This document shows, piece by piece, positions 13,804 through 39,696 of a DNA stretch of 64,000 nucleotides (the stretch's first letter is position 1; the number at the start of each line of letters is the position of its first letter). A program made the position numbers and the translations under genes. The notes beneath the pieces were generated by a model. It did not search any database. It saw only the letters and a list, made by a program, of their open reading frames with translations, and was not told where the DNA came from. The DNA comes from Candidatus Binatia bacterium (lineage in GTDB: Bacteria > Desulfobacterota > Binatia > UBA12015): NCBI GenBank assembly GCA_029243485.1, contig JAQWRY010000010.1, positions 1 to 64,000 of the forward strand, given 5' to 3'.

Positions 13804-14334
13804 GTGAAGAGCATCAAAATACTGCAAAGCTGTGCCGCGGTGTCCGTCACGACGATGGCACTATTATTGGTTGGTTGCGGCGACGGCGCGAGCCAGGCTG
13901 GTCAGGGTTCCGACGGCGCTCCGACTCTCGACATCATTGAGACCGCGGATGACGCCGGGTCGTTTCAAACTCTTTTGGCAGCGGTAGAAGCCGCGGGCCT
14001 GACGAGCACGTTGCGCGGCGACGGTCCTTTCACGGTATTCGCGCCCACCGATGATGCGTTTGCGGCGCTACCCGCAGGCACGGTCGAAGACCTCCTCCTG
14101 CCCCAGAACATCGAGACGCTGACCGCGATCTTGACCTACCACGTCCTCGGCGCAGAGGTGAGGGCGGCGGATGCGATCGCGGCCGGATCAGCCGAGACCC
14201 TGAACGGACAGCGAGTCATCATTGAGGAGTCGGGTGGGGCCGTGCGGGTGAACGACGCGAACGTCGTGGCGGCCGATGTCCTCGCGTCCAACGGCGTCAT
14301 TCATGTGATCGACGCCGTACTTCTTCCCGAGTAG
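13804..14334 (+). CDS. Fasciclin-domain lipoprotein
   Basis: 176 aa starting at GTG 13804, with AAGGAG 9 bases upstream. A lipoprotein signal ends LLLVGC, so the mature protein is lipidated at Cys. A single fasciclin (FAS1) domain follows: FQTLLAAVEAAG, GPFTVFAPTDDAFAALP, YHVLGAEVRA and the C-terminal NGVIHVIDAVLLP. FAS1 lipoproteins act in adhesion or envelope stress and are recurrent members of light/ECF-sigma regulons in other bacteria. Confidence 0.9.
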   Translation: MKSIKILQSCAAVSVTTMALLLVGCGDGASQAGQGSDGAPTLDIIETADDAGSFQTLLAAVEAAGLTSTLRGDGPFTVFAPTDDAFAALPAGTVEDLLLPQNIETLTAILTYHVLGAEVRAADAIAAGSAETLNGQRVIIEESGGAVRVNDANVVAADVLASNGVIHVIDAVLLPE

Positions 14335-15832: not shown

Positions 15833-17287
15833 TCACACGCCGCCTGATCCGGAACCCGCCGTACGGGCGATCCCGCGGAGCATACCGCGAAACACTGCTT
15901 GGTGAAGGATGTAGATCCCATACCAATAGGCTAGCCCGGAGAGTCCGATCGGATCGAACACCGCCGTCTGTCGAATTGTCGACGCCTCGCCGTTGTCTGT
16001 GACCTCGAACTCGAGCCAAGCTCGTCCGGGGAGCTTCATCTCGGCGGAGAGAAGGAGTCGATGTCCGGGTTCGAACTCCTCTACGCGCCAGCAGTCCAGA
16101 GCGTCGCCGACGTGCGTCGTGTCTACGTGCGGCCGGCCCCGCCGCATGCCCACGCCGCCGACGATCAGATCGAGTGCCCCTCGGACCGCCCAGAGCCAAT
16201 CGCCGTAGTACCATCCGGTCCGGCCCCCGATCCGTTGGATGGGGGCGAACGCCGCCGCGCAGGAAAGCGGCACGTCGATGGTCCGGGAGTCGACCAAGCG
16301 GTTCCCGAAGCGTACCCCGCCCCAGTTCGTCTCCGCACCGGCCGACGAGAGGGCATCGGACCAGCGCGTCTGAACGAGCTCTTGATCCTCGTCGCGAAGC
16401 GCACGTTCCATCGCTTCGGTGATTCCACCCGGGCGTACGTCGAAGACCGATGTCGCCCGACCGTCGCGCACGATAGTCGGGTGCTGAATGCTCTCGATGA
16501 GTTTGCTCCCCACCCGCGCAAAGAGAGGCGTCACGAGGCCAAGCCAGAGGCTGGAGAGCCGCGGTGTCAAGACGGGTACCGGCAGCATCCATCGGTTCAG
16601 TCCCCGCAAACGCGCATACTCGCGCATCAACTCGCCGTACGTGACGACGTCATCGCCACCGATCTCGAACACGCCGTCGCCGGGATCCTCCACCTCGATC
16701 GAAAGAATCAGGAAGCGAAGAAGGTCATCGACAGCGATCGGCTGTGCGGGGATCGAAACCCACTTGGGCGTAATCATGACGGGGAGCCGCTCGACAAGGG
16801 CTCGGATCATCTCGAACGATAGGCTCCCGGCGCCGATCACGATGGAGGCCCGCAGCTCGATCACCGGCACGCCCGATTCTCGCAGGAGCCTACCGACTTC
16901 GTGCCGACTCCTTAGGTGGGCCGAGAGGGGGAGGTGGCTGTCGCCCAGGGCGCCGACGTATACGATGCGCTGCACTCCGGCCGCGCGTGCAGCGCGGGCG
17001 AAGTTCTGAGCTCCGTCTCGATCGACCTCTTCGAACGAGTCTTCGGAACCCATCGAGTGGACGAGGTAGAAGGCTACGGTCACGCCCTGGAGCGCTAGCC
17101 GCAGGCTCTCCTCGTCGAGAACGTCGCCGCGCACGACCTCGGTGTTCGGTCCAACGCGCCCTCGCAGCGCCTCGGGTCGTCGGGCGAGGCAGCGAACACG
17201 ATAGCCCGACCGATCGAGCGTCGGATGGAGTCGTCCCCCAATGTAGCCGGTCGCACCGGTGACGAGAATGGTATCACCGTCTCTCAT
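15833..17287 (-). CDS. Extended SDR with C-terminal DUF2867 domain
   Basis: 484 aa. The N-terminal Rossmann domain has the cofactor loop TGATGYIG (residues 10-17), YLVHSMGS and VYVGALGD. The C-terminal half, from about residue 310, is the DUF2867 lipid/START-like region (GGRTGWYYGDWLWAVRGALD), ending in a hydrophobic segment near LAYWYGIYILHQAVF. Function is unknown; such fusions probably act on a lipid or quinone. ATG 17287 overlaps the stop of the upstream TIGR01777 gene by 4 bases, so the two are in one operon. Confidence 0.88.
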   Translation of the reverse strand: MRDGDTILVTGATGYIGGRLHPTLDRSGYRVRCLARRPEALRGRVGPNTEVVRGDVLDEESLRLALQGVTVAFYLVHSMGSEDSFEEVDRDGAQNFARAARAAGVQRIVYVGALGDSHLPLSAHLRSRHEVGRLLRESGVPVIELRASIVIGAGSLSFEMIRALVERLPVMITPKWVSIPAQPIAVDDLLRFLILSIEVEDPGDGVFEIGGDDVVTYGELMREYARLRGLNRWMLPVPVLTPRLSSLWLGLVTPLFARVGSKLIESIQHPTIVRDGRATSVFDVRPGGITEAMERALRDEDQELVQTRWSDALSSAGAETNWGGVRFGNRLVDSRTIDVPLSCAAAFAPIQRIGGRTGWYYGDWLWAVRGALDLIVGGVGMRRGRPHVDTTHVGDALDCWRVEEFEPGHRLLLSAEMKLPGRAWLEFEVTDNGEASTIRQTAVFDPIGLSGLAYWYGIYILHQAVFRGMLRGIARTAGSGSGGV

Positions 17288-18660
17288 GTCGCGGCCTCCG
17301 TGGACAGGAGCTGCACGATCTGATCGCGGCGATAGCGGAAGATGGTCTCGAGCTCCTTGGCGACCCGCGAACCGGCAACCAGATCACCCAACGCGCCGCA
17401 CGGTAGACGGTAACGGATGCGGTCGCGGACGATGGTCGCTCCGTCATGGCCCTCTAACTCGTGGCGATGATGCCAGAGCGAGTACGGTCCCTTCTCCTGG
17501 ATGTCGACGAAGTTGTGAGGTGGCTGCCACGCGTCGATGCGCGTACGCCAGCGTATCGGGATCCCGTGCAGTCGAAGCCGGTAATTGATGAGGCTGCCTG
17601 CGCGCATGTCACTCTCTGGTGGAGAGGAGATTGAGAAGTGTAGGAACGGCGGAGTGATCTTCTCGAGGTTTTTGGCATCGGCGAAGAAAGCGAATGCCCG
17701 CTCGAGGGGGAGTTCGACTCTTTGTTCGAAGACCAGTTCGTGTGCGTCACGGGAGCAGATCTCCCCCAGTGCTTCGGATAACGTGGGGTAGCGGAACTCG
17801 AAACCGGATTGCTCGGCGACTCTGGGGATCAGGCGCTGGCTGGCGGTCATGATCGAGGACATTTGGCCAAACGCGGCGCGCAGTGCGAAGGCGGGTAGGG
17901 GCAAGAATGCGGGGCGTCCGACGCACGCGGCGAGGGCGGCGGTGAAGTCGGAATTGCGAACCGGGTTTGGCGTGGCGGCGTTGACCGGTCCTCGGACATC
18001 TTCGTTATCGAGAGCGTGAACGAATAGCTGTACGACGTCGTCCAGGTGGATCCAGCTCATCCACTGCTTTCCGCCGGCGATCCGCCCGCCGAGTCCAGCT
18101 CGGAAGATCGGCAACACCGGTCCGAGCATGCCGCCTTCGTCGTCTAGGACGATGCCGATTCGCAAAACGGCGGATCGCACGCCGAGCTCTTCGGCTCTAC
18201 GAATCGGTGCTTCCCAGGCGGTGCAGAGGGACGGCATGAAGCCGGTACCCGGGGTGGAACCCTCGTCGAGAACATCGTCGCCCCGGTCGCCGTAGTAGCC
18301 GATCGCAGATGCGGACAGGAGGCACTTCGGTCGGTTGTCCCGGGGGAGCGAAGCGATGGCATCGAAGATCGCGGTCGCGGTGTCGATACGCGAGGCCTCG
18401 AGTGCTCGTTTCCGTGACGGAGTCCAACGACCGCCGGCTACGTTCTCGCCGGCTAGATGGATCACCGCGTCGGCGTCCATCAGAGTATCCATTGGCAGGT
18501 CTCCGGGGGACCATGGAACGACATTGCAGCGCGCCGGGAGAGAGGAGACCGCCGCCTCGGGGGATCGGGTCCAGGCGACCACGTCGTGTCCGTTGGCCAA
18601 TAGCTCTTGGGTCAGACTCCGGCCGATCAAGCCTGTTGCCCCCGTGACAACGACGTTCAT
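17284..18660 (-). CDS. TIGR01777 epimerase-like protein fused to an SRPBCC domain
   Basis: 458 aa. Residues 1-300 form a YfcH/TIGR01777 NAD(P)-binding domain (VTGATGLIGRSL, IHLAGENVAGGRW, SASAIGYYGDRG, SWIHLDDVVQLF). Residues of about 305-458 form an SRPBCC ligand-binding domain (ELVFEQRVELPLERAFAFFA). This fusion is widespread and is often light-induced along with photolyase. It overlaps its neighbours by 4 bases on both sides, within the DUF378 / TIGR01777 / SDR-DUF2867 operon. Confidence 0.92.
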   Translation of the reverse strand: MNVVVTGATGLIGRSLTQELLANGHDVVAWTRSPEAAVSSLPARCNVVPWSPGDLPMDTLMDADAVIHLAGENVAGGRWTPSRKRALEASRIDTATAIFDAIASLPRDNRPKCLLSASAIGYYGDRGDDVLDEGSTPGTGFMPSLCTAWEAPIRRAEELGVRSAVLRIGIVLDDEGGMLGPVLPIFRAGLGGRIAGGKQWMSWIHLDDVVQLFVHALDNEDVRGPVNAATPNPVRNSDFTAALAACVGRPAFLPLPAFALRAAFGQMSSIMTASQRLIPRVAEQSGFEFRYPTLSEALGEICSRDAHELVFEQRVELPLERAFAFFADAKNLEKITPPFLHFSISSPPESDMRAGSLINYRLRLHGIPIRWRTRIDAWQPPHNFVDIQEKGPYSLWHHRHELEGHDGATIVRDRIRYRLPCGALGDLVAGSRVAKELETIFRYRRDQIVQLLSTEAAT

Positions 18661-18965
18661 GCCTTTCCCTCTCTTTGTTCGAGCCGGCTAGGTAGAGGCC
18701 AGCTCTGCAGGGTTGTCGCGGCGGGCTCGCCGACGATTCCCCAACGCTTCCAAAGGCTCGGGAGGGTTAGGACCTGATAGAGCGCGCCGAGTCCGACGGC
18801 GCCGTAGATTAGGCGGTTCTGTTCTCCCAATTGGCCGAAGTCGAGACCCGACAAATAGGATGTGAGGTCCACTCCGGAGATCGCTATGAATCCCCAATTC
18901 AGTCCTCCTGCGACGGCAAGTGCGGCGGCGAGGATGTCCAGGGTTCTCAGGCTGATGCTCTTCAT
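18657..18965 (-). CDS. DUF378 small membrane protein
   Basis: 102 aa from ATG 18965, which has GAAGGA 7 bases upstream; a longer frame upstream lacks such a site. A DUF378 motif is visible: LDILAAALAVAGGLNWGFIA and IYGAVGLGALYQV form two membrane helices. Function is unknown. Its last codons overlap the TIGR01777 start by 4 bases. Confidence 0.85.
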   Translation of the reverse strand: MKSISLRTLDILAAALAVAGGLNWGFIAISGVDLTSYLSGLDFGQLGEQNRLIYGAVGLGALYQVLTLPSLWKRWGIVGEPAATTLQSWPLPSRLEQREGKA

Positions 18966-18984: not shown

Positions 18985-19377
18985 CTACGCTGCTTGCGCT
19001 GCGGCAAGCGGGCTTCGTGGACGGGTCTCGGCGCGTACGAGGCGACGGATCCATTCGGGTTCCAGTTTGAAGCGCTGGCAGAGAGGTACGAACGACAGGA
19101 AGTAGGATTCGTCCTCGGCCTCGATCCAGCGCATGGCGGACCTCGCGGCAGCGCGCTGAGCGCTCGATGGGGATCTGGCGTGTCGGATGGCGCACTGTAC
19201 GGCGTCGAAGAGAATCGCTCGGTGAAGGCTCAGCTCCGGCGAATCGGGACTCGATGGCTGGTTCATCGAGACCTGGGCCGGATCGACGGCGCTTGCCATC
19301 ACGAGCCGCTCGACTATCCCGTCGACTTCTCCGGGGTTGAGTCTTTGGATGGGCTTCTTCCGTGAATGTGAATTCAT
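18985..19377 (-). CDS. Hypothetical protein, 130 aa, first gene of the DUF378/TIGR01777 operon
   Basis: A soluble helical protein. Its C-terminal half (ARSAMRWIEAEDESYFLSFV, then LCQRFKLEPEWIRRLV) resembles a short conserved domain seen in many Deltaproteobacteria-like genomes, where a WI-x-FSF-x-C-LG-x-P-x-R pattern recurs. Function is unknown. It ends 20 bases before the DUF378 start and lies directly behind the tandem CGTTCA operator, so it is likely the promoter-proximal gene. Confidence 0.65.
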   Translation of the reverse strand: MNSHSRKKPIQRLNPGEVDGIVERLVMASAVDPAQVSMNQPSSPDSPELSLHRAILFDAVQCAIRHARSPSSAQRAAARSAMRWIEAEDESYFLSFVPLCQRFKLEPEWIRRLVRAETRPRSPLAAAQAA

Positions 19378-19406
19378 TGTCTAGTCCTCCGCCTCGTTCT
19401 GAATAA

Positions 19407-19506
19407 CGTTCAAAACGTTCAATACATGTCCAAATTGAAGAGGTCAAGTCCATATTATCAGGAAAAACTAGCAAATTGGGCTTTCTAAATCGTTCAAAAC
19501 GGTCAA
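19407..19506. promoter_or_regulatory. Two tandem CGTTCA operator sites between divergent genes
   Basis: CGTTCAAAACGTTCAA (19407-19422) and CGTTCAAAACGGTCAA (19491-19506) share 15 of 16 bases. Their starts are 84 bp apart, eight helical turns at 10.5 bp. The first lies 30 bases upstream of the minus-strand operon start; the second ends 12 bases before the MerR ATG. On the minus strand TTGACC and TATTGA with 17-base spacing flank site 1. Each site holds two direct half-sites 10 bp apart, as expected for a dimer or tetramer of a MerR-type repressor. Binding by the adjacent regulator is inferred. Confidence 0.55.
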
Positions 19507-19518
19507 GATAGAACAACA

Positions 19519-20424
19519 ATGGCTAAATCGACCCGAAACGATGTGAGTCCTCGCGATCTCGCTGCAGCGGTGGATGTCAGTGAGTCTTCCTTGAAGCGCT
19601 GGGCGGATGACGGGCTTCTCGAGGTGCGGCGGACGGCTGGAGGCCACCGCCGCATTCCCATCAGCGAGGCGATCCGGTTCGTTCGCGATGCGCAGCTCCG
19701 ATTGGTGAACCCAGCTCTTCTGGGGCTTCCCGATCTGGGAGAGATCAATCCGGAGGTAGGCCCGCCCGAGGGTGGTCAGCTCGAGGCGCTCTTTGTTGAG
19801 CACCGCGGTCGCGACGCGGCTCGAGTCGTGCTCGCCGCTTACCTTGGGGGCAGCAGCATCGCCGAGCTGTGCGACGGTCCGATCCGTCAGGCGCTGGCTG
19901 CGGTTGGCGAGCTCTACTTGAGTGGCGAAGAGGGCGTCGCGATCGAGCACGGAGCAGTCGACGCGTGTCTTGAGGGACTGAATGCAATCCGGCAGCTCGT
20001 CGTGCCGCCCTTGGACGCGCCCGTCGCGATCGGCGGTGCCATCCAAGGCGATCCGTACATTCTGCCCAGCTTGTCTGTCGCGATGGTCCTGGAAGAGATC
20101 GGATTCCGCGCGATCAACACGGGGCCAAACACTCCTGCGTCGGCGATCCTAGCGACCGCGCGGAGTGAACGACCCGCTCTGCTTTGGCGGTCAATCAGCA
20201 GCGTCCCCCGTGGAGAAGATTGGCTGAGCGAGGTCACATCGGTTCGGGGTTACGCCGAAGAATTCGGATGCGATTTCGTTCTAGGCGGCCGCGCCTGTCG
20301 TTCGGCGCGCGGGCTCTTGGCTGGGACTCAGGCCTTCGAGTCTCTGCAGGAGCTCTCGGGGTTCGGCCGAGCGTTGCTTGCCGCGAAAGGGGCGTCTTCA
20401 GGCGAGCAGAGCCAACGGGATTGA
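19519..20424 (+). CDS. MerR-family regulator with degenerate cobalamin-binding domain (CarH/LitR-like)
   Basis: 301 aa. The N-terminal MerR helix-turn-helix (about 10-50) reads VSESSLKRWADDGLLEVRRT and GGHRRI. The C-terminal part (about 85-250) has the CarH/LitR fold. The adenosyl-side motif WxxGx6EH appears as Y133-L-S-G-x6-E143-H144, so Trp has become Tyr. The cobalt-ligand motif G-E-x-H-x-x-G appears as G177-D-P-Y180-I-L-P, so the axial His has become Tyr. Known relatives need both for light sensing through adenosylcobalamin. It is divergent from the DUF378/TIGR01777 operon with paired operators between them. No clear Shine-Dalgarno precedes ATG 19519. Confidence 0.8.
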   Translation: MAKSTRNDVSPRDLAAAVDVSESSLKRWADDGLLEVRRTAGGHRRIPISEAIRFVRDAQLRLVNPALLGLPDLGEINPEVGPPEGGQLEALFVEHRGRDAARVVLAAYLGGSSIAELCDGPIRQALAAVGELYLSGEEGVAIEHGAVDACLEGLNAIRQLVVPPLDAPVAIGGAIQGDPYILPSLSVAMVLEEIGFRAINTGPNTPASAILATARSERPALLWRSISSVPRGEDWLSEVTSVRGYAEEFGCDFVLGGRACRSARGLLAGTQAFESLQELSGFGRALLAAKGASSGEQSQRD

Positions 20425-22852: not shown

Positions 22853-24328
22853 CTATTTTGCGATATTGGTCCGGGACACGCCCCGAAGGAGGTCGAGGGC
22901 CGCGGCCCTCCGCTTTTGGTAATCGACGCACGGGGGTGGGTAGCCCGTTCGGGCGAGGGTCGACGGGTCGCGAGCCGGCTCGTGAATCAGCGGAGCCTCG
23001 ACATCCGCCAACTCGGGCACCCAGCGGCGGATGTACTTCCCCTCGGGATCGAACTTCTTCGACTGGAGCAATGGGTTGAAGATCCGGAAGTAGGGTGTCG
23101 CGTCGGTCCCTGTGGATGCTGACCACTGCCAGCCCCCGTTGTTGGCGGCTGGGTCGCCATCGACCAGGCGCTGCATGAAGGCCCTCTCTCCGATTCTCCA
23201 GTCCACCAAAAGGATCTTGCTGAGAAACGAGGCGGTGATCATCCGCAGCCGGTTGTGCATCCAGCCGGTTTCATTCAGCTGTCGCATCCCCGCGTCGACG
23301 ATCGGAAAGCCGGTACGCCCCTCGGTCCAGGCTTCGATGATCTCGGGCCGCTTCTCCGGCCAGATCATGTGCTCGTATTGTCTGCGGAAGGGGCCTCGGA
23401 GAACGCGTGGGAAGTGAAAGAGCACGGAGTGGTAGAAGTCACGCCAGCAGAGTTCGGTCACGAATGCGCCGGCTTCCTGGAGCCGATGCTTCTCCTCTCG
23501 GTTCATTCCAAGGTGGGAGCGGGAGGGGTCGAGGTCGACATGCTCCTCTCCCACGAAGCGCGCGACGGTGGCGTAGATCTGTCGAGAGGACAACGTTCCA
23601 TACTTCAGGTCCGCGGAGATCCCCGACGTTCCGGTGAGGCTCGGCGTGTTGCGGTCCGACCGATAGCGAGCAAGTCGGCTCGATACGAATCGGCGGAGGC
23701 GCCGCGCGGCTTGGGGCTCGCCCCCGGCGATGATCCTGGCGTGGAGGGAGAACCCGAGGCTGGACAGCGTGGGAAGAGAGCTTGCGACTGAACGGAATTG
23801 GCGGGGCAGTGTGGTCGGCTTCATGCTCGGTCGTCGCAGCGGAGGGGACTTGGCGACCTGGCGCCACCGTCGAGCGTACGGGGTGAAGACGGTGTAAGGG
23901 CTCCCATCGTCCTTGACGCACTCCCACGGTTCGACCAGCACGAGGTCCGCGAAGTCACGCCACCCGATCCCAAGCTCTCCGAGCGCCGCCTGGACCCCAG
24001 CGTCGCGCCTTCTTCCGTAGGGACTGTAGTCTCGATTGGTGAACACCGCGTCTGCCTCGAGGTCGTTCGCGATCGCCGGCACGACGCTTCGTGGCTCGCC
24101 GTGGAGTATGAGCAAGGGCAGGCCGCGCTCCTCCAGGCTTCTCCGCAGACTCGCTAGCGCGTCGAGTAAAAACGCGACGCGTGGAGCTCCGATGTCGGTG
24201 GATTCGAGGAGTTTGGGATCGAGGACGAAGATCGGAAAGACGGTGTCTCCGTCGCGACACGACGCGCTGAGCGCGGTGTTGTCGCAGAGGCGAAGGTCCC
24301 GCCGGAACCAATGAAGGATCCGCTTCAT
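22853..24328 (-). CDS. phrB: Deoxyribodipyrimidine photolyase (class I cryptochrome/photolyase)
   Basis: 491 aa. The N-terminal antenna-binding alpha/beta domain starts ILHWFRRDLRLCDNTAL. The FAD domain carries ELCWRDFYHSVLFHFPR, FPIVDAGMRQLNETGWMHNR, SKILLVDWRIGERAF and ANNGGWQWSASTGTDATPYF, with the tryptophans that stack the lesion and relay electrons. It repairs UV cyclobutane dimers with blue light. It lies in the same neighbourhood as TIGR01777, DUF378 and a CarH-like regulator, the usual light-induced company. No CGTTCA operator is seen upstream of this gene. Confidence 0.95.
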   Translation of the reverse strand: MKRILHWFRRDLRLCDNTALSASCRDGDTVFPIFVLDPKLLESTDIGAPRVAFLLDALASLRRSLEERGLPLLILHGEPRSVVPAIANDLEADAVFTNRDYSPYGRRRDAGVQAALGELGIGWRDFADLVLVEPWECVKDDGSPYTVFTPYARRWRQVAKSPPLRRPSMKPTTLPRQFRSVASSLPTLSSLGFSLHARIIAGGEPQAARRLRRFVSSRLARYRSDRNTPSLTGTSGISADLKYGTLSSRQIYATVARFVGEEHVDLDPSRSHLGMNREEKHRLQEAGAFVTELCWRDFYHSVLFHFPRVLRGPFRRQYEHMIWPEKRPEIIEAWTEGRTGFPIVDAGMRQLNETGWMHNRLRMITASFLSKILLVDWRIGERAFMQRLVDGDPAANNGGWQWSASTGTDATPYFRIFNPLLQSKKFDPEGKYIRRWVPELADVEAPLIHEPARDPSTLARTGYPPPCVDYQKRRAAALDLLRGVSRTNIAK

Positions 24329-26780: not shown

Positions 26781-27374
26781 TCAGCCGCCCGCAACGACAG
26801 GGAAAAAAGCTGGCCAGACCAGCGCGTCGAGCACTGCGGTTTGGAAGGAGAAGAGTAGGGCTCCAAGGATGGCAAGCGCCCGCGCCCCACGCGCGCCGGA
26901 CGGCGCGGCCGTGGCGATCGACGCGATCAATGCGAGGGAGGCTACTCCGACCACGGTGAGCACGATTCGAATCGAAAGCCACAAAGCCGAGTTGGGTGTT
27001 TCGATCATCTGGAAAGTGAGAGGCATCCACAGCGCGGAGGGAATGAGAATCGCCGCGTAGATGGCACTGAACGCTCGGAATCCGAATCGGCCAAAGATCC
27101 GCACGTTCGAAGTATCGAGTGAGAACAGGATGTAACCCGTGAAGAGAAAGTACCCCACGGCCGCGAGCAGCATTGAGATCGTGTAGAGCGGCTGGAGGCC
27201 CTCCGGCACCCCGCCCCATACCGCTCCCGAACTCTCGGGGTGTGTTGCGATGCCGACGACGTAGCTTGCGAGCACTGCGACCCCGCCGATGATGTTCAGG
27301 GCAATGAACATCCTTTGGTGCGTCGCGCTCGAGAGCGCTTGGGATCCTTGCAGAGGTTTGGTCGCTGCACTCAT
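26781..27374 (-). CDS. Hypothetical integral membrane protein
   Basis: 197 aa with about six hydrophobic segments (for example MFIALNIIGGVAVLASYVVG and SMLLAAVGYFLFTGYILFSL). It overlaps the chalcone-isomerase-like gene by 4 bases and is adjacent to the PlsC-like gene, so it is translated with them. I recognise no named family. Confidence 0.7.
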   Translation of the reverse strand: MSAATKPLQGSQALSSATHQRMFIALNIIGGVAVLASYVVGIATHPESSGAVWGGVPEGLQPLYTISMLLAAVGYFLFTGYILFSLDTSNVRIFGRFGFRAFSAIYAAILIPSALWMPLTFQMIETPNSALWLSIRIVLTVVGVASLALIASIATAAPSGARGARALAILGALLFSFQTAVLDALVWPAFFPVVAGG

Positions 27375-31760: not shown

Positions 31761-32333
31761 ATGGGTTCTTCGACACGAGTGAACTTTCGGCATGTTCGCG
31801 CCTTGCTCACCCTCGGTCTTCTCGGTGCAATCGGATGCACCGGGATCCCCGAGGGTCTCGAGCCCGTCGGGGGGTTCCGAACGGAGCGCTACCTCGGGAC
31901 GTGGTACGAGATCGCCCGACTCGACCACTCGTTCGAGCGCGGACTGCAGGACGTGTCTGCCACATACTCCGCGCGATCCGGCGGCGGCATTCGAGTGGTC
32001 AACCGTGGTTACGACCCTACGGCGTCGGAGTGGCGCGAAGCCGTCGGCCTCGCCTATCCGCTCGGAGATCCCGGGATCGGAAGTCTGAAGGTGAGCTTCT
32101 TCGGCCCGTTCTACGGGGGGTATCACGTGATCGCCCTGGATGAGGACTACGGCTGGGCCGTGGTGGTGGGACCGGACCGATCTTATCTCTGGTTCCTCGC
32201 TCGGGATCGGTCGTTGACGGCCGAGCGGCGGGAAGCCCTTCTCTCGGTTGCGCGCGACGGGGGCTTCGACGTCGCGGCGCTCGTTTGGGTGGAGCAGGAC
32301 CGCGACGACCCGGCCCTGGAACAGGACGAGTGA
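31761..32333 (+). CDS. blc: Blc-type outer-membrane lipocalin
   Basis: 190 aa. The lipoprotein signal (RALLTLGLLGAIGC) is followed by the lipocalin motif YLGTWYEIARLDHSFERGL, SLKVSFFGPFYGGYHVIALD and YLWFLARDRSL. Blc lipocalins bind lysophospholipids at the outer membrane and are stress-induced. ATG 31761 follows GAAGG closely. The open frame upstream is not lipocalin. Confidence 0.9.
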   Translation: MGSSTRVNFRHVRALLTLGLLGAIGCTGIPEGLEPVGGFRTERYLGTWYEIARLDHSFERGLQDVSATYSARSGGGIRVVNRGYDPTASEWREAVGLAYPLGDPGIGSLKVSFFGPFYGGYHVIALDEDYGWAVVVGPDRSYLWFLARDRSLTAERREALLSVARDGGFDVAALVWVEQDRDDPALEQDE

Positions 32334-38151: not shown

Positions 38152-39696
38152 CTACGCCCCGGCGCTCGCGCTCGTCACACGAACCGGAACACTCTGCCCC
38201 TTGTCCAGCATCGCCGCCGGAAGATCATTCGTATGCGTGAGCGTCCTCCTGCGGAACGGGCTCGCAAGCAACTCGAGGATGTCCGACGTCTTCATGTACC
38301 GGGAGAAGTTTCGCAGAAGCTTGAACGTCTTCCGTGGCCGCAGAAAGATCCTCTTTGCGAACAGAATCGCGTAGCCCTTCTGTCGCGCCCGATTAATGAC
38401 CTCACCGGGGAGCACACGGGAGTCGATGTCCGAGCACTTGAACCACTTATACCAGTCGCGCTTGTCGTCGATGATCCCGAGGTCGAGGTACTCGCGCCAG
38501 AGTGGCGTGCCCCGGTAGGCGCAAAGACGGTTGAAGCCGAACGTGTCGAGTTCGAGCTTGGCCGCGAACCGGAAGCTCTCGACGATGTCCTCCTCGGTCT
38601 CGTCGGGTGAGCCGAGGAGGAAGAAGCCGTGGCACGTTTCGATCCCGTTGCGCTTCGCTTCGCGGACGGCGTTCTCGCACTGCTCGAGAGTCTGGCTCTT
38701 CTTGAGACGATCGAGGACTTTCTGCGTGCCCGCTTCGATTCCGAACGCGAGGAAGCCGCAGTTTGCGCGTCCCATGATCGGAAACTGATCGACGGCGACG
38801 GAGTCCACGCGTCCTTCGCAGCCCCAGCGGATCTCCAGCTTGCGATCGATGATGCCCTGGCAGATCTCGTTGATGCGTTTGCGCTTCAGAAGGAAGTGAT
38901 CGTCCGTCAGGTAGACCGAGCGGTAGCCCTGATCGTTCAGTTGCTGCAGTTCGCCGAGCACGTGCTCGGCCGAGCGGCAGCGCCACTTTCCATCCGCCAG
39001 CGCCGGGATGTCGCAGTACACGCAGGGGTAAGGGCAACCGCGGGAGCTCTGCATCGTGCAGAACTTGTCGAGCGAGAGCACGGTGGGGACGTCCAGCGGC
39101 ATCGACTCGATGTAGTCGATGGGGAGCGACATGCGGTCGGGGTAGGGGAAGCGGTCGAGATCTTTCAGGATCGGTCGGGGCGGATTCTCGACGATGTCGT
39201 CCCCGTTGCGCCAGACCAGTCCGTTGACGAGTCCGAGATTCCCCAGGTTGGCGAGGTAGTCGGGCAACAACTCTTCACCTTCGCCGCGTCCGACGGCATC
39301 GGCATTCTCGCAGTCGATCAGGCACTGTCGGGTATTCATCGACGCGAAGACGCCGCCGAGAATGATCGGCGTATCCGGCGCGGCGCGCTTCAGGCGCGCG
39401 GCCATTTGCTTCGTCGTCGGGTACGAAGTCGTCGACAAGAACGAGAGCGCGATGACGTCGGGATTCTCTTCGACGACGGCCTCGGCAATGTTCTCTTCCT
39501 TCATCTCCGGATGACAGGTGTCGAACATGCGGACTTCGTGTCCGGCTTCGCGCAGGACGGGCGCGAGGGTTTCGATTCCGAGAGGCGGGAAGGCCATGAC
39601 CTTGACGCGCCCCTCCTCAGATTCCCCGCCGCCGAGCTCTGCCGGCAACATGCGATAGAAATCCTCGTCGCGGACGTAAATCAGGAAGACCTTCAT
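38152..39696 (-). CDS. B12-binding-domain radical SAM protein
   Basis: 514 aa. The N-terminal cobalamin-type Rossmann domain spans about residues 1-160 (PPLGIETLAPVLREAGHEVR, VIALSFLSTTSYPTTKQM), with no DxHxxG motif. The radical SAM core follows, with the cluster motif SSRGCPYPCVYCDIPALADG (CxxxCxxC), then GFLAFGIEAGTQKVLDRLKK. This group includes hopanoid and Mg-porphyrin-type methylases and cyclases; the substrate here is unknown. The gene is monocistronic. Confidence 0.85.
   Translation of the reverse strand: MKVFLIYVRDEDFYRMLPAELGGGESEEGRVKVMAFPPLGIETLAPVLREAGHEVRMFDTCHPEMKEENIAEAVVEENPDVIALSFLSTTSYPTTKQMAARLKRAAPDTPIILGGVFASMNTRQCLIDCENADAVGRGEGEELLPDYLANLGNLGLVNGLVWRNGDDIVENPPRPILKDLDRFPYPDRMSLPIDYIESMPLDVPTVLSLDKFCTMQSSRGCPYPCVYCDIPALADGKWRCRSAEHVLGELQQLNDQGYRSVYLTDDHFLLKRKRINEICQGIIDRKLEIRWGCEGRVDSVAVDQFPIMGRANCGFLAFGIEAGTQKVLDRLKKSQTLEQCENAVREAKRNGIETCHGFFLLGSPDETEEDIVESFRFAAKLELDTFGFNRLCAYRGTPLWREYLDLGIIDDKRDWYKWFKCSDIDSRVLPGEVINRARQKGYAILFAKRIFLRPRKTFKLLRNFSRYMKTSDILELLASPFRRRTLTHTNDLPAAMLDKGQSVPVRVTSASAGA

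Follow-up and report, generated by a model that had tools for sequence, protein, structure and literature searches.

Organization of the locus

The window, by which we mean the whole 64,000-nucleotide stretch of Candidatus Binatia bacterium DNA analyzed here, carries an open reading frame on its forward strand at 19519–20424, with an ATG start and the stop codon inside the end coordinate. Its 301-aa product is a regulator consisting of a BldC-like helix-turn-helix head, a four-helix bundle, and a B12-type Rossmann domain. Facing away from it on the minus strand is F1 (18985–19377), the conserved divergent partner of the regulator, which encodes a helical protein of 130 aa belonging to no known family. 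A DUF378 gene (18657–18965, minus strand) comes second in this presumed divergent operon. It overlaps by 4 bp with the gene for a YfcH-type SDR containing DUF1731 and an SRPBCC-type domain (17284–18660, minus strand), which in turn shares 4 bp with the gene for a DUF2867 NAD-binding SDR (15833–17287, minus strand). Two recurrent neighbors of the family lie farther out: a gene for a fasciclin-domain protein (13804–14334, plus strand) and, about 2.4 kb downstream of the regulator on the opposite strand, a DNA photolyase gene (22853–24328, minus strand).

The window copy of F1 scored over the cut-off of no Pfam family and had no NCBIfam match, and its predicted fold, a weak model (pLDDT 74, pTM 0.56), matched no PDB entry at E 0.001. 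F1 belongs to a multi-copy family, with eight matches in its own genome and a match at E 1e-8 in 150 of 186 related genomes. The highest-scoring members mostly adjoin regulators, and the close subfamily pairs with the regulator; when the genes of 84 family loci were clustered, F1 was found only beside members of the window's own, Binatia-type class. Two strong relatives (G008:C2 and G012:C136) have neighbors judged oxidase-like by eye, and the stretch examined around them contains no regulator.

Elsewhere in the window, the frame at 38152–39696 (minus strand) has a PF02310 B12-binding match at 39259–39591 and appears by eye to encode a B12-binding radical SAM protein. The frame at 26781–27311 (minus strand) encodes a small membrane-like protein with no Pfam match at E 1e-5, whose cluster recurs in 5 of the 84 loci, and that at 31779–32333 (plus strand) encodes what by eye is a lipocalin-like protein.

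Domains and predicted fold of the regulator

The DNA-binding head spans residues 11–57 (19549–19689, plus strand; SESSLKRWADDG...GGHRRI) and has no RxWERRY recognition helix. The Pfam MerR family matches it at residues 11–45 with 29.0 bits, above the cut-off of 28.2. Among NCBIfam models, the best for the head is HTH_BldC (E 7.6e-8; 32.1 bits, below the cut-off of 77). Against the NCBIfam CarH model, the window protein scores 24.3 bits and a CarH-like gene at another family locus (L023) 121.6, both short of the cut-off of 400.

Both B12 families of Pfam score below threshold on the window protein (B12-binding_2 18.3, cut-off 23; B12-binding 16.6, cut-off 32.1). Despite these scores, the B12 fold is clear in the AlphaFold2 model, which was built from 76 aligned relatives and has a mean pLDDT of 95.1 and a pTM of 0.91. 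Compared with solved structures, the modeled sensor domain resembles that of CtMerR (Z 21.9–22.5), the photocobilins (21.6–22.1), TtCarH (up to 18.9), and the SCHIC domain of AppA (17.8). By sequence, the solved structure that matches best is 8jbs, from CtMerR (phmmer, E 3.2e-16).

A multi-phylum clade of regulators

A scan of genome contigs with the single protein returned no relatives; an alignment scan did find them. Run on named genomes with head peptides rather than the Tyr motif as search patterns, and keeping the best 80 of 248 (those most similar to the window protein), it gave 79 loci, of which 54 are from Planctomycetota and the others from Myxococcota, Opitutia, Rhodothermia, and further groups. 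Because the profiles were built from Tyr or Phe members and the best 80 of 248 were retained, this sample may favor Tyr rows. One of the alignments, A3, holds 76 of 80 rows (L049, L074, L079, and L086 were omitted as irregular). The set of 84 loci and an alignment of 155 rows omit L030, L031, L033, L036, L050, and L054, whose contigs were already represented; the 84 loci are also without the second copy of L019 and without L027, L028, and L029.

Ten of the 193 genomes searched as relatives, the window's own included, have a match at E 1e-10, and the own genome has one paralogue, 45% identical to the window protein. Among 294 Planctomycetota genomes, 102 gave a match at E 1e-15; family members account for the strong full-length matches, and the weaker ones include His-type CarH-like proteins as well as parts of other B12 proteins.

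In a tree of 128 rows computed with the trait columns excluded, a single clade of 105 rows (SH-aLRT 97) stands beside CtMerR, and canonical CarH-like proteins fall outside it. The rows were those left after thinning at 62%, with eight retained by choice and TtCarH left out. The exact place of CtMerR, which enters as a fragment on a long branch, is less sure because of the long branches and because the tree was made by a ‘quick’ method with no bootstrap. Of the 155-row alignment, 131 rows belong to the clade; since these include near-copies (10 rows are more than 98% alike to another), we give thinned counts as well. The family is a variant within the B12-fold MerR regulators, and we found no earlier description of it in the open-licence literature searched.

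We also looked at how the family co-occurs with cobalamin proteins. One CarH query found nothing at E 1e-10 in 31 of 34 family-bearing genomes; G001, G003, and G541 have both the family and CarH, and G580 has one clade row and one His-type row. Genomes free of B12, which could have served as proof of B12-independence, did not emerge: a search at E 1e-8 found B12-binding_2 in 35 of 39 family-bearing genomes. A PF02310 match was present in all five genomes checked, G543 having only one, in a 565-aa frame. In several family-bearing genomes the B12-binding_2 matches lie in frames of about 230–390 aa, some of which may be His-type photoreceptors missed by the single CarH query. The window's own genome has a MetH-like frame of 1269 aa with both B12 domains, so B12 is probably used there. 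In two genomes of the genus to which the window belongs, the Tyr-type regulator has, at most about 8 kb away, a His-type CarH-like gene (L023, 10878–11876; L018, 12131–13033), and these His-type genes sit among similar photoprotection genes.

The cobalt site and its surroundings

The B12 photoreceptors have been assigned a light-response signature of four elements, GxxW, EH, GxxH, and GxxxP, which the SignatureFinder work described in PMC11796333 applied as a filter to 128,000 sequences. The window protein has Y133, G136, E143-H144, and G177-D-P-Y180-I-L-P183, and of the four elements it keeps only EH and GxxxP. The upper-face signature G130xxY133...E143-H144 (19906–19950, plus strand) has Tyr for Trp in the window's subclade. 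In the B12 motif GDPYILP (residues 177–183; 20047–20067, plus strand), the alignments place Tyr180 where the cobalt His would be: it stands opposite the B12-motif His of 8jbs in a phmmer alignment, and the family alignments agree. A replacement His at the cobalt is ruled out on alignment grounds, since the protein has His only at positions 43, 95, and 144.

Among the 131 clade rows, position 180 is Tyr in 112, His in 8, Phe and Ser in 3 each, and Cys, Gly, Thr, Asn, and Asp in one each. When these rows are thinned at 95% identity (n = 124), the counts become Tyr 105, His 8, Phe 3, and other residues 8. The 14 aligned members of the window's class have Tyr (12) or Phe (2). All 23 His-type relatives have His180. 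By tree and alignment, then, the family is a multi-phylum clade in which Tyr at the cobalt position is clade-wide and old. A recent loss of the ligand in a single gene is ruled out, Tyr being found throughout the clade.

The upper face has changed far less. In the 124 thinned rows, W133 is present in 113, E143 in 121, H144 in 106 (with Arg in 16), G202 in 124, and P206 in 122, so that most members keep GxxW, EH, and GxxxP, and GxxH is the changed element. Tyr133 is local, being confined to the window protein and three relatives of its class that form a supported group (SH-aLRT 95). While the upper-face residues probably reflect a ligand, they might be kept for subunit contacts instead. Because the clade alters the cobalt contact and keeps three of the four signature elements, a filter that requires GxxH would miss it. 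A precedent for the altered contact is the HaAI-2E domain, which has Arg at the place of the cobalt His and is reported to have bound neither AdoCbl nor MeCbl (PMC11796333).

A second marker of the clade is Trp223 (20185–20187, plus strand), found in 129 of the 131 rows, or in 122 of 124 after thinning, vs 0 of the 23 His-type relatives. Two residues after it comes Ser225, which agrees with the Ser of SxT/V in D/ExHx2G/Px41SxT/V, the form of the B12 motif quoted in PMC9304148. Because it shares the strand register of Ser225, two residues on, the side chain of Trp223 should face the tail pocket, and it probably fills the space taken elsewhere by the dimethylbenzimidazole tail.

Several variants stand out within the clade. 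His180 occurs together with Trp223 in eight scattered members (L044, L070, L075, L076, L080, L096, L160, and L186); cobalt binding may persist in these rows, which counts against our main reading. A Planctomycetota subgroup (L183, L187–L194, L196–L198, L200–L202, and L204) has Glu-Arg, as in YQERRA, for the Glu-His of the upper-face motif. The own-genome paralogue (locus L020; G000:C62:3504–4346, minus strand) has GDPYILP, Trp133, and Lys for His144, and it adjoins an F1 gene.

The initial annotation had proposed that the cobalt ligands of this protein are changed, and the residues it named (Tyr133, Tyr180, E143-H144, and GDPYILP) are all borne out with the right numbering. The alignment likewise places no other His at the cobalt, and the two checks it had suggested, a structure prediction and a family alignment, returned the confident B12 fold and the pairing of Tyr180 with the B12-motif His given above. 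Its description of the protein as a CarH/LitR-like regulator that has lost its ligands does not hold: the protein belongs to a distinct clade, CtMerR is the B12-binding protein closest to it in the tree, Tyr180 is clade-wide, and only the change of Trp133 to Tyr is local. The rest of the domain, which it took to be intact, includes the overlooked Trp223. The MerR head, also called intact, is BldC-like rather than of the RxWERRY type of CarH, which had gone unremarked.

Tandem repeats in the divergent promoter

The region between F1 and the regulator (19378–19518) contains two putative operators made of tandem 9-bp repeats. The candidate operator 1 (19403–19421, plus strand; core CGTTCAAAACGTTCA at 19407–19421) lies about 25 bp from the start of the divergent gene, where the promoter reads CGTTCAAAACGTTCAA at 19407–19422. 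The candidate operator 2 (19487–19505, plus strand) ends 13 bp before the regulator start; its core, CGTTCAAAACGGTCA at 19491–19505, has one mismatch, and the promoter reads CGTTCAAAACGGTCAA at 19491–19506. In the window by itself, the two sites are at chance level (2 found vs 1.95 expected at two mismatches), so the evidence for operators is comparative. A sigma-70 consensus scan of 19300–19600 found no promoter.

Across the family, CRTTCA-N3-CRTTCA occurs with at most one mismatch in 65 of 102 regions upstream of family genes, vs a mean of 1.0 in shuffled sequence; the pattern was settled after some 27 of the regions had been inspected visually. With the repeats spaced at eight other periods, between 1 and 6 of the 102 regions matched, and period 11 of the same half-site gave 1. 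The motif is also common after thinning by protein identity (61 of 97 regions at 90%, 56 of 89 at 70%) and outside the window's class (58 of 91). The A/T flanks, which were free in the search pattern, are conserved in the aligned sites, yielding AAAWCGTTC twice, and 63 of the 65 sites share one orientation. The 37 regions of 102 that have no motif at one mismatch count against our main reading. For comparison, BldC protomers are described as binding head-to-tail on 9-bp direct repeats, AATTXXXX(C) (PMC5859096), and CarH operators as 11-bp repeats with TnnACA (PMC9304148).

Genome-wide evidence for a regulon beyond the locus is weak, which counts against our main reading. At one mismatch, the own genome has 67 sites vs 13 for the reversed pattern; four exact sites lie away from the window, and the three examined are all inside predicted genes. 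A longer pattern gave 2, 1, 11, and 1 sites in four other genomes. The 11 sites are those of G598, where the reversed pattern gave 7, and the exact sites of G534 and G547 coincide with the site upstream of their own regulator. In G528, the exact site is not at the regulator and lies upstream of a gene with relatives in the L035 and L037 loci; the promoter of its regulator (L034) is absent from the listed regions within one mismatch. Two exact operator matches occur in 676 kb of control sequence, and one of them is in L303, the sole control segment with a core photoprotection gene, about 1.1 kb from its DUF2867 gene, which is suggestive only.

Gene neighborhood

In the 84 loci, the commonest gene clusters are photolyase (17), GTP cyclohydrolase I (FolE, 17), fasciclin (16), DUF2867 SDR (14), and DUF378 (12), mostly divergent from the regulator. 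Rarer types are cyclopropane synthase, DUF1295, DUF1365, a desaturase, a photolyase-related protein, phytoene synthase, and a CrtI-like oxidase. By tblastn with own-locus proteins excluded, 53 of the 84 loci had at least one of 14 photoprotection-type genes, compared with 1 of 40 random segments. The p-value of this contrast is descriptive only, since the loci themselves supplied the gene types and the control draws on fewer taxa. The control segments, 16.9 kb each, came from ten planctomycete genomes and the own genome. Thinning at 60% identity left 46 of 71 loci with such a neighbor, and a separate count by gene clusters put a core gene in 47 of 84. The neighborhood thus points to photo-oxidative stress. 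Counting against our main reading, 31 of the 84 loci are without such a neighbor, including 13 of the 41 with full flanks. Pfam found no PAS/LOV match among eight window proteins or among 30 neighbor proteins, and no BLUF match among the 30.

What the family may sense

The clade, the residue swap, the recurring promoter motif, and the gene neighborhood are computed results. The reading of them that we prefer, with a probability of roughly 55%, is that the window protein would be an autoregulated regulator of photo-oxidative stress that no longer holds cobalamin in the His-on mode, takes a ligand at its upper face, and acts on tandem-repeat operators. With the cobalt-gripping residue swapped, the family probably senses something else or holds its cofactor in a new way. 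Another ligand, or action with none, was the initial annotation's suggestion and is our leading idea. In the mechanism that we envisage, BldC-like heads would bind head-to-tail on the AAAWCGTTC repeats of the divergent promoter, and the regulator would control its own gene together with the F1-DUF378-YfcH-DUF2867 operon, presumably repressing both in the unstressed state. The sensor domain, with Tyr at the place of the cobalt His and Trp223 probably in the tail pocket, would be without base-off/His-on cobalamin, and its upper face (GxxW or GxxY, EH, and GxxxP) probably takes a different ligand. Binding of that ligand would change the oligomer state and hence DNA binding, with light or singlet oxygen as the likely input.

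It is conceivable, if unlikely, that the sensor domain is instead a ligand-free oligomerization or docking module to which F1, a LOV protein, or a CarS-like antirepressor brings the signal, as in class II LitR or CarA. Such arrangements are on record: PmlR2 is inhibited by an illuminated LOV protein and PplR controls photolyase, FolE, and other genes without B12, according to PMC9758184, and PMC9304148 describes CarA as B12-independent and countered by CarS. F1 is indeed encoded divergently beside the regulator in the window's group. Yet a docking module of this kind sits poorly with upper-face residues that are kept across phyla, and F1 accompanies only the window's class in the 84 loci, with the G008:C2 and G012:C136 relatives standing apart from any regulator in the stretch read; the 30 neighbor proteins, moreover, brought no PAS/LOV or BLUF match. 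That the family still binds AdoCbl or a different corrinoid, either with Tyr180 below the cobalt or with no lower ligand (His-off), and works as a green-light sensor strikes us as improbable. Most of the clade does keep three of the four published light-response elements and changes GxxH alone, light in CarH is described as acting on the bond above the cobalt (PMC11796333), and the MetH-like frame makes B12 use in the own genome probable. Position 180, however, varies (Y, F, S, C, T, N, G, D, H) in a way that a fixed metal ligand would not, Trp223 would block the nucleotide tail, the upper-face Trp is also lost in the window protein, and the HaAI-2E domain with Arg at the cobalt place failed to bind.

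We consider it very doubtful that heme or another tetrapyrrole has replaced cobalamin, even though Tyr is a known heme ligand in some other proteins. The analogy here is the SCHIC domain of AppA, which has a similar fold (Z 17.8) and for which heme binding is reported (PMC9144470). In that domain, however, the ligand is described as a shifted His284 and the Trp cap as lost (PMC9144470); most of our clade keeps the cap, the window protein has no His near 180, and Tyr180 is not invariant.

Returning to our preferred reading, it is tempting to speculate, although here our confidence is tentative, that these multi-phylum photo-oxidative-stress regulators represent a cobalamin photoreceptor scaffold with a new cofactor or a His-less corrinoid, missed by searches that require GxxH. 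If so, the B12 photoreceptor fold would have been widely re-used for control of light and oxidative-stress responses without the known cobalt chemistry, and in phyla where such control has been little studied. A chromophore other than His-on cobalamin could also be useful for optogenetics. The predicted operator and target operon would then make photo-oxidative-stress sensing in these bacteria directly testable.

Comparison with known systems

BldC resembles the window protein in its probable head type, the model score being below cut-off, and in its 9-bp direct repeats with an AT-rich tetramer and C at position 9, here a sequence pattern only; it differs in having 68 residues and no sensor domain (PMC5859096). 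The SCHIC domain shares the B12 fold and is reported to take heme, but it is part of a BLUF protein, with the shifted His ligand and lost Trp cap noted above (PMC9144470).

Class II LitR (PplR and PmlR of Pseudomonas) is similar to our family in its link to photolyase, FolE, and similar genes and needs no B12; B12-free PplR of P. putida is described as involved in the expression of PhrB, UfaM, FolE, and CryB, and the LOV protein inhibiting PmlR2 as a short one (PMC9758184). Unlike our family, class II LitR has only its helical bundle domain recognizable, and the site suggested for it is TGTACA-N12-GGTATA (PMC9758184). CarA of Myxococcus xanthus has the B12 fold and EH, as does the window protein, and it functions without B12. 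The initial annotation had likened the window protein to CarA-type regulators, a comparison that turns out to be inverted: CarA retains the His motif and EH without the Trp (PMC9304148), whereas the clade mostly keeps Trp and EH without the His.

With CarH and class I LitR, the window protein shares the MerR type, the four-helix bundle, the Rossmann B12 fold, and the link to photoprotection genes. These have an RxWERRY head, 11-bp TnnACA repeats, and His-on AdoCbl (PMC9304148); the motif recurring in our family has period 9, and the window protein is without RxWERRY and the cobalt His of D/ExHx2G/P, and of Wx9EH it keeps EH, with Tyr133 for the Trp. CtMerR of Chloracidobacterium thermophilum (PDB 8JBS/8JBT) matches the window protein in domain order, the SESS-KRW head (by sequence), the sensor fold, EH, and GxxxP. 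CtMerR, however, has the cobalt His, Trp at 133, and Cys at 223, and it is described as an AdoCbl-bound tetramer that becomes a monomer in the light (PMC11796333).
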